From Tranzscheliella williamsii (Eukaryota > Basidiomycota > Ustilaginomycetes > Ustilaginales > Ustilaginaceae): 64,000 bases of DNA. Below the pieces are notes generated by a model. It saw nothing but the letters and a program-made list of their open reading frames with translations. It made no database searches and was not told the origin of the DNA. The translations under genes and the position numbers were made by a program. Of the stretch, positions 57,101-59,443 are shown piece by piece. The stretch is taken from assembly GCA_023212725.1 (NCBI GenBank), contig JALBYF010000035.1, positions 62,001 to 126,000 on the forward strand. The letters are read 5' to 3'. Every line of letters begins with the position of its first letter. Position 1 is the stretch's first letter.

Positions 57101-58152
57101 GAACCAGCTTGCCGTCCGGAGCTTGTGGAGAACGAGACGGCGCTGGTCGAGTTTGAACAGCTGCGACATCCTTGTATTGCTGGCGAAAACGTGGACTTTA
57201 TCCCCAACGACATCCGTCTAGGAGGCAAGAGCGATGAAGTTGTCATCCTGACCGGAGGCAACATGGCCGGTAAGAGCACTACAGCACGAACCAGCGCCAC
57301 TGCCGTTATTCTAGCCCAGCTGGGCTGTCGTGTGCCTGCTACCTCGGCGCGACTCTCGCCTGTCGACCGTATCGCTTCGCGGATGGGAGCCAATGATCAA
57401 ATTTTCCGAAACAACAGCACGTTCATGGTGGAGATGCTGGAGGCCGCTCGCATCATCAACGAATGCAGTCCGCGCTCGCTTGTTATCATGGACGAGCTGG
57501 GTCGGGGAACCAGCACCTTTGACGGTCAGGCCATCGCGTTTGCCGTGCTTCACCACCTGGTCAGCAGGACCAGATGCTTGACCTTCTTCCTGACTCACTA
57601 CACAAGTCTCGCCTATGACTTTGATGCATATTCGCGAGTCAGCAACAAACACATGCAGGTCTTGGTCGACGACGCCAAGCGCGAAGTGGTCTTTACGTAA
57701 GTAGGGCGTTGCGACTGTCGGCTAGGAGTCGCATCTTCTGACTGGGTTTGTTCCATTTCCGCCGCTATGCTTTCTGCTTTTGTTCACATGCTAGGTACCG
57801 GCTGATTGACGGCATTGCTGAGTCTTCATACGGAACGCAGGTAGCTGCGCTCGCCGGTGTGCCGCATGAGATCTGCGATCGCGCCGCTGTCGTCTCGCAA
57901 CAATTCGCGGCCGCCACAAAGGCGAGCCAGGCCGGAAAGAACCACAGCGCCATCCCGCTGGCCTTGCTGAGCGACTTTGTGCATCTCGTCAAGACCGCTG
58001 ATACACGGCTTCCAGACACCAGCGACAAGAACGGCAGGATCAAAGCTCTGACTATGACTTCGCAACTGGACATCATCCGATCGCAAGTGGCCAGCATTGC
58101 AAGCGCTGCTTCTGCGCGCAACGTGCCCATTATGACCCCAGCCTGTACGTAG
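54131..58152 (+). CDS. MSH6: DNA mismatch repair protein Msh6 (possibly fused to Eco1)
   Basis: Exon 1 (54131-57696) and exon 2 (57795-58152) join (GTAAGT donor, GCTAG acceptor) as REVVFT-YRLIDGIAESSYGTQ. As a separate gene the product is 1307 residues. It starts with a PCNA-binding PIP box at residues 11-18 (QSSLLGFF), then 250 acidic/basic disordered residues. The mismatch-binding domain follows ([35 protein letters not shown] with the Phe-x-Glu wedge), then connector and lever domains, and the ATPase with TGGNMAGKST, DELGRGTSTFDG and THYTSLA. Msh6 pairs with Msh2 as MutS-alpha to recognise base mismatches. The final codons CCTGTACGTAG contain a consensus GTACGT donor; splicing there to 58263 would remove the stop and continue in frame into ECO1. 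Confidence 0.95.
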
Positions 58153-58262
58153 ATCCAAGCACGCAATCTGAGCTCTGTCGTCACCCAATTCTGACGATGG
58201 TGCGGCGCTTGTCTCCTCTGTTTCCTTTGACCCAACTATCTCGTCTCCTCTTCCCCGAACAG
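58145..58262 (+). other. Predicted intron joining MSH6 to ECO1 in frame
   Basis: The donor GTACGT at 58145 is the same hexamer used in RPL10, MER3 and TFB5 introns of this window. CTGAC (58191-58195) and a CAAC core near 58233 are candidate branch points. A long pyrimidine-rich run (58210-58257) ends in GAACAG at 58262. Removal joins GCC-T to TA-CAG-CAC. The 33 codons from 58265 to the ATG at 58364 have no stop and are in the ECO1 frame. Confidence 0.65.
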
Positions 58263-58363
58263 TACAGCACAATGACAGTCATGATGGCCATGACAGCCGG
58301 AACAACTTTGAAGATGAGCAGGCCTCTGCCGTGTCGCAACATCAGGCTCACCTCGGTTCAAGG

Positions 58364-59443
58364 ATGGCGATCACCTACGGAGGGAGGAATCGAAGGGCTA
58401 TGACGGAGAGCATCCCCGCCACGCCACGCGTGCCAAAGCGCCCGCGCCTGAGTTCCGACGAGGAGGAAGAGCCGCTGGATCTGTCGCCACAGGCACTGAG
58501 CAGCCCGGTCATTTCTGCCAGCTCGCACACGTATGTGGATGTCAAGGCGTCCAGACTGACGTCCCGAAAGACGGCCAAGGTGCTCAAGGAGCCGGAGCAG
58601 CTGATCCTCGATCTGGGACAGAAGATCCGGATCCGCTGCGCAGGCTGCGATATGCAGTACGATACCTCGTCCGCGGAAGACTGTTCGCTGCATACCAAGT
58701 ACCACGAGCGCACGGTCAAGGGCTTGGACTGGACGGCCAAGGCGCTCTGGGCGCACGGGGAGGTGGTGGCCGAGATGGAGACCCGCGTGAAGCGCGATGC
58801 CGCCGATACTCTGCGCGGCCAGCAGAGCAGTGCGGGCGGTGGGGGAGCCGGCGAGCTGCGCAACGTGACGATCGCCTGCTACGACATGTCGGCGATCAAG
58901 GATGCGACAGTGCAGCGCAAGACCTCGGAACTGCTCAAGTGCGTGGACGAAGCGCTGGGTGCTGCTGAGATGGGCGCGGGGGTGACCAAGACCTGCCGGC
59001 TCTTTGTCGCGGTCTGCGGCGGGCGGGCGATCGGGGCAGCGCTGATAGGGCGCGTGCCCGCAGGGGCAGCGCGCGAGGTGCTCGCACGCGAGGCCGACAA
59101 AGAGAATCAGCCGCAGAAAGCAACGATATGGAACGACGCCGGCGACGCCATTGTCGTCTCGGACGCGCTGCCCGCCTCGCGCACCCCGCCCGTCGGCGTC
59201 TACCGCATCCACATCATCGCTTCCTGGAGACGCACGGGCGTCGCCAGCGGTCTGCTCGACGCCGCAGCCGACCACAGCGTCTACGGACTGAACCTAAGCA
59301 GTCTGGTCGACATGTACGGCAGTCGCGCCAGAGCGGTAGCCTTCAGCCAACCCACCGAGGCGGGCCGTAGGCTTGCTGAAGCCTGGATCCGCAAACAAGC
59401 GCACGACGCCGCCTCGACCCGCCTCCTCGTTTTTGAAGCCTGA
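58364..59443 (+). CDS. ECO1: Cohesin acetyltransferase Eco1/Ctf7 (possibly the C-terminal half of an Msh6 fusion)
   Basis: If translated separately from the ATG at 58364 the protein has 359 residues. It contains a C2H2 zinc finger (IRCAGCDMQYDTSSAEDCSLHTKYHERTVKGLDW), preceded by the Gln/Leu-rich EPEQLILDLGQK typical of Eco1. The GNAT acetyl-CoA site is VGVYRIHIIASWRRTGVASGLLDAA, and the Eco1-specific AFSQPTEAGRRLAEAW lies at the C-terminus. Eco1 acetylates the Smc3 head during S phase to establish cohesion and is essential in yeasts. Only 211 bp separate the MSH6 stop from this ATG, and that space looks like an intron. The open frame extends upstream to 58263, so the native N-terminus may be Msh6 itself (1698 residues in total). 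Confidence 0.9.
   Translation: MAITYGGRNRRAMTESIPATPRVPKRPRLSSDEEEEPLDLSPQALSSPVISASSHTYVDVKASRLTSRKTAKVLKEPEQLILDLGQKIRIRCAGCDMQYDTSSAEDCSLHTKYHERTVKGLDWTAKALWAHGEVVAEMETRVKRDAADTLRGQQSSAGGGGAGELRNVTIACYDMSAIKDATVQRKTSELLKCVDEALGAAEMGAGVTKTCRLFVAVCGGRAIGAALIGRVPAGAAREVLAREADKENQPQKATIWNDAGDAIVVSDALPASRTPPVGVYRIHIIASWRRTGVASGLLDAAADHSVYGLNLSSLVDMYGSRARAVAFSQPTEAGRRLAEAWIRKQAHDAASTRLLVFEA

Follow-up and report, generated by a model that had tools for sequence, protein, structure and literature searches.

A probable Msh6-Eco1 fusion in the smut fungus Tranzscheliella williamsii, joined across a predicted intron that contains the MSH6 stop codon

We analysed a window (the whole stretch of 64,000 nucleotides) from Tranzscheliella williamsii, which is a member of the Ustilaginaceae according to taxonomy look-up. 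In this window, a gap of 211 bp separates MSH6 (54131-58152) from ECO1 (58364-59443), which follows it head to tail on the same strand. The flanking ORFs are located at 49800-52328 (+), which by eye we take to be a MER3/HFM1-type helicase, and at 60752-62212 (-), presumably, also by eye, a DHH1-type DEAD-box helicase. The features of the locus are listed below.

54131..57696, + strand: MSH6 exon 1, 3566 nt, open from the ATG, covering MutS domains I-IV and a portion of V
54161..54184, + strand: PIP box QSSLLGFF (residues 11-18), likely PCNA-binding, found by pattern match
57697..57794, + strand: MSH6 intron 1, GTAAGT...CTAG; the protein joined across it equals the deposited MSH6
57795..58144, + strand: MSH6 exon 2, 350 nt, end of the Msh6 part, from frame, Pfam and the deposited MSH6
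58145..58262, + strand: predicted MSH6-ECO1 joining intron, donor GTACGTAG, acceptor AACAG, from frame arithmetic, shuffles and the donor-encoded residues of relatives
58150-58152, + strand: MSH6 stop TAG inside the predicted intron, from read-through of the MSH6 frame
58263..58363, + strand: predicted to encode an acidic linker ahead of the ECO1 ATG, open frame
58364..59443, + strand: ECO1 coding sequence, 359 residues if begun at its own ATG; ORF with a 100% match at a single place in its own genome
58370..58396, + strand: ITYGGRNRR, Pds5-interaction-like motif of putative function; TY(A/G)GRxRR is kept in relatives
58598..58711, + strand: ESCO zinc finger PF13878 (Pfam)
59192..59398, + strand: ESCO1/2 acetyltransferase domain PF13880 (Pfam)

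The Msh6 protein of the window is identical at 1307 of 1307 residues to the deposited T. williamsii mismatch repair protein (P0006). Read without splicing at the junction, the MSH6 frame ends GCC-TGT-ACG-TAG with its last base at 58152, as the preliminary description had given it. When 58145-58262 (118 nt) was removed, from the donor GTACGT at 58145 to the acceptor AACAG ending at 58262, the exons of 3566, 350 and 1181 nt (the third being 58263-59443) formed one open frame of 1699 codons whose sole stop is terminal; the exact restoration of frame claimed earlier was thus reproduced. The 33 codons before the ECO1 ATG are open, as had also been stated, and by frame computation both parts are uninterrupted in one frame after the predicted splicing. 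The resulting protein of 1698 residues contains, from MSH6, MutS domains I-V and, from ECO1, the zinc finger and acetyltransferase domains of ESCO.

Among 17 AGs tried as acceptors, those at 58172, 58313 and 58382 also join openly to ECO1 besides the one at 58262, which is the only one of the four that closes a pyrimidine-rich stretch (58212-58262, 76% C+T); such a tract had been described there. In dinucleotide shuffles of 58145-58363, a comparable in-frame join, defined as a GT[AG][ACT]GT donor near the stop, a pyrimidine-backed YAG acceptor and an in-frame join, was obtained in 3 of 2000 cases, a figure which is only a rough guide because the criterion was chosen post hoc with the case already seen. 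The TFIIH subunit gene TFB5 (59822-60215) has two introns, the second with the donor GTACGT at 60107, and the protein joined at these introns matches Pfam Tfb5 over positions 2-66 of 67, which backs the earlier claim that GTACGT serves as a donor elsewhere in the neighbourhood. The absence of AATAAA from the 211-bp gap had been taken as a sign of an intron; the absence was confirmed, but it carries no weight and was rejected as evidence, because the 378 bp after ECO1 and the 485 bp after TFB5 also lack it. The GC content at third codon positions was 0.58 in the linker (33 codons only), 0.64 in MSH6 exon 1, 0.43 in the intron read in frame and 0.81 in ECO1. The Ustilaginales genomes studied have less than one intron per gene (text of PMC10262431), which makes an intron kept at this junction more notable.

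All five MutS domains of the joined protein exceed the Pfam cut-offs, as do zf-C2H2_3 (43.8 bits) and Acetyltransf_13 (54.9 bits), and a profile of the Eco1 part matched the structures of ESCO1 and ESCO2. No polymerase domain was found in the joined protein by Pfam. The possibility of another ECO1 elsewhere in the genome, raised in the preliminary description, was checked by searching the assembly with either domain and with the protein; no second ECO1 was detected. Six further MutS places were counted in the genome. With a single detected ECO1, cohesion would depend on the MSH6-ECO1 locus. Loss of a catalytic motif, FSQPT here vs FSDPT in human ESCO1, was considered and rejected, because AFSQPT was reported for 39 of the 42 Eco1 proteins compared, plant proteins among them, and FSQPT is therefore ordinary. 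As to the exceptions, the P0005 sequence has AFSQPT though another stretch was reported, and P0045 and P0046 are without it.

A search with residues 1200-1698 of the fused protein (7985 candidates scored) returned 19 proteins; among these matches listed, 5 were one-protein MSH6-ECO1 models and 14 were MSH6 only. The former are predictions from Kalmanozyma brasiliensis (P0001, Ustilaginales), Tilletia walkeri, T. horrida and T. laevis (P0002, P0003 and P0004, respectively, Tilletiales) and Tilletiaria anomala (P0005, Georgefischeriales), and a later search (7990 candidates scored, 22 proteins listed) added a predicted model from Exobasidium rhododendri (P0056, Exobasidiales). Orders were assigned by taxonomy look-up, and by genus for T. 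walkeri and T. laevis. The comparison of the joined protein with related smut fungi, which had been proposed earlier, thus found one-protein models in at least six species of four orders and two classes of Ustilaginomycotina, all of them gene predictions, in which neighbouring genes can be erroneously merged. The linkers of the Tilletia one-protein models are the clearest, free by eye of intron-like sequence, and the linker of the Exobasidium model resembles a translated intron. The Eco1-domain protein P0045 (338 aa, JGI) carries in its source the name 'DNA mismatch repair protein MSH6' and is perhaps a trace of another fused relative.

Among the matches listed, stand-alone annotations of ECO1 come from Sporisorium reilianum, Ustilago trichophora, Pseudozyma flocculosa, Ceraceosorus and Meira. 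These annotations, together with the end of the deposited T. williamsii MSH6 at 58152, favour the presence of two tightly packed genes, with MSH6 ending at 58152, ECO1 starting at 58364 from a pyrimidine-rich promoter in the 211-bp gap, and the fused models being merging errors; we consider this unlikely, and fused models in four orders argue against it. Such a pyrimidine-rich tract would be compatible with a fungal promoter as well. In all three species for which MSH6 and ECO1 are both listed as separate models, the reported contigs of the two are equal in size (760034 in S. reilianum, 834540 in U. trichophora and 481212 in P. flocculosa), a point in favour of the fusion. Deposited T. williamsii genes of this kind were modelled by the authors on U. 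maydis (text of PMC10262431).

The splice sites of relatives were read through their protein translations. All 13 complete MSH6-only models among the matches listed (P0017, named partial, was left out of the 14) end in T, as CT in 12 and as RT in that of Thecaphora frezii (Urocystidales), and elsewhere within the last 20 positions agreement reaches at most 10/13. Such an ending, C/R-T-stop, is the expected reading of TGT/CGT-ACN-stop across a phase-1 GTACNT donor. Since TGT-ACN-stop is the phase-1 reading of GTACNT with an immediate stop, it is likely from these translations that the donor sequence and the stop behind it are conserved from Ustilaginales to Urocystidales. In the Kalmanozyma model, the join is upstream of the CT site. 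That the donor-encoded CT is kept while neighbouring residues vary speaks against two separate genes, but the stop directly behind the donor is kept in the same 13 of 13 models, which speaks for them. This conservation exceeds what the donor alone should need; it suits a retained-intron isoform that is in use, and suits equally a plain MSH6 stop in a two-gene arrangement.

An Eco1 search (7994 candidates scored) returned 36 proteins, and the Eco1 ORFs of some relatives were found to extend upstream through intron-like stretches followed by the linker. The block PAVKKITTYAGRxRRA, or a near variant, stands directly before Eco1 in 10 of the 18 aligned rows among the matches listed (P0001, P0020-P0027 and P0029); P0028 and P0030 start downstream of it. 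At this place, Tilletia has an (I)ASYAGRNKRR-like sequence, and the window has GSRMAITYGGRNRRA, with the TYxGRxRRA end present and the PAVKK part absent. The window has a Met at 58364, two residues ahead of ITY, and several relatives have one about 20-26 residues before TYAGR; these could be independent starts and count in favour of separate genes. On the other side, in P0025 and P0029 the block has no nearby Met: the sole preceding Met is residue 1, which lies within intron-like sequence, so that with an independent start the block would be untranslated or under an unconserved start. The agreement of donor and acceptor phases also argues against separate genes. By eye, a T-(A/V/G) step fitting ACA-G|NN in the donor phase is present in the window, P0020, P0023, P0025 and P0029, the five ORFs judged to reach the acceptor; P0039 and P0045, which may extend to an acceptor too, were left out, as their boundary could not be placed.

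A re-split, in which Tilletiales and other Exobasidiomycetes would probably have a true fusion that Ustilaginaceae, T. williamsii included, have undone, with the intron as a relic, would agree with the linkers of Tilletia and with the mostly split Ustilaginaceae models listed, but it is unlikely given the fused model of Kalmanozyma, itself in Ustilaginales, and the donor, in-frame acceptor and linker block that Ustilaginaceae keep.

The explanation that we regard as likely as a whole is an old Msh6-Eco1 fusion, spliced at 58145/58262, with the PIP box of Msh6 recruiting Eco1. Most likely, judging from the sequence, MSH6 and ECO1 are co-transcribed and spliced into one predicted Msh6-Eco1, and the fusion probably predates the split of the main Ustilaginomycotina orders. 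Relatives lend good support to the Msh6-Eco1 fusion put forward in the preliminary description, and the joinable frames, the domains, the copy number in the assembly and, at the level of relatives' proteins, the conservation of linker and donor-encoded residues were confirmed; the splicing itself, and with it the protein product, its recruitment by the Msh6 PIP box, its isoforms and the regulated switch between splicing and retention suggested earlier, is what we infer.

The motif TYAGRxRR is similar to K/R T/S Y S R K/L, the motif for Pds5 interaction described for WAPL, HASPIN and SORORIN; Wpl1, Hrk1 and Eso1 of fission yeast likewise have a Pds5-interaction motif in common (text of PMC11148194). 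TYAGRxRR is also similar to [M/Phi]xxYG[K/R], a motif of fungal Wapl (text of PMC10656103). Because the Eco1 proteins P0047 and P0049 begin with MRTYSRNVRRAW, the TYxGRxRR-type motif is probably an old Eco1 N-terminus that is now internal. The pattern TY(A/G)GRxRR is absent from P0005 and P0056. At the other end of the fusion, the PIP box that had been attributed to Msh6 exists in the window, and its pattern was found in 20 of 20 MSH6 relatives among the matches listed. The canonical PIP pattern was found in 0 of 26 Eco1 ORFs, some of which are partial; Eco1 proteins are described as possessing a PIP box of their own ahead of the zinc finger (text of PMC10656103), and yeast Eco1 binds PCNA, coupling cohesion to replication (text of PMC9032331).

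In the fusion, the PCNA-binding motif at the N-terminus of the Msh6 half would bring the acetyltransferase to the replication fork. Eco1 would thereby sit on MutS-alpha bound to PCNA, at the fork or behind it, and would there acetylate Smc3 of freshly replicated sister chromatids, perhaps with help from the internal Pds5-binding-like ITYGGRNRR. Because the MSH6 stop codon lies inside the donor, transcripts left unspliced would encode only Msh6.

DNA polymerase eta is a PCNA-linked protein. The description of fission yeast Eso1 as a natural fusion of this polymerase to Eco1, made earlier, is borne out by the text of PMC3542068. In both systems, Eco1 forms the C-terminal half and a PCNA-linked DNA repair protein the N-terminal half. 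The partner here is Msh6, a MutS-family mismatch sensor and not a polymerase; the junction here, unlike that of Eso1, is predicted to carry an intron whose donor includes a stop; and the one-protein models come from at least four orders. By this comparison, Msh6-Eco1 is most likely analogous to Eso1 with another partner, from the MutS family, rather than an Eso1. Eso1 without its polymerase eta part is still proficient in S-phase cohesion (text of PMC3542068), so that a fused partner is not necessarily required for recruitment and may contribute control linked to damage, or no more than a shared transcript. Compared with Msh6 of other fungi, which likewise has an N-terminal PIP box and MutS domains I-V, the protein here has a predicted Eco1-bearing C-terminal extension. 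The Eco1 part here shares PF13878, PF13880 and the AFSQPT motif with stand-alone Eco1/ESCO proteins, but it is predicted to lack its own promoter and start codon, and its N-terminal TYxxR-like motif is internal in the fusion.

No account of an Msh6-Eco1 fusion was found in the openly available papers searched, and Eco1, Eso1 and CTF7 do not occur in the main text, as available, of the paper reporting the genome and annotating MSH6 (PMC10262431). A wider reading, which we offer tentatively as possible rather than probable, is that Eco1 is wired to Msh6 throughout the subphylum and that smuts have a conserved splice-or-stop switch at GTACGTAG, which would act both as the splice site for Msh6-Eco1 and as the stop for Msh6 alone, governing the amount of cohesion activity that accompanies mismatch repair at the fork.

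If the Msh6-Eco1 fusion is true, fungi have joined Eco1 to different DNA repair proteins at least two times, and this would suggest that a tether between the cohesion enzyme and machinery for repair or replication is favoured. The fusion would also predict that a large number of the MSH6 and ECO1 gene models in this group are truncated, and that smuts from which the MSH6 locus is removed die or show cohesion defects if no ECO1 is supplied. A connection of mismatch repair with the establishment of cohesion would become directly testable in laboratory smut strains.
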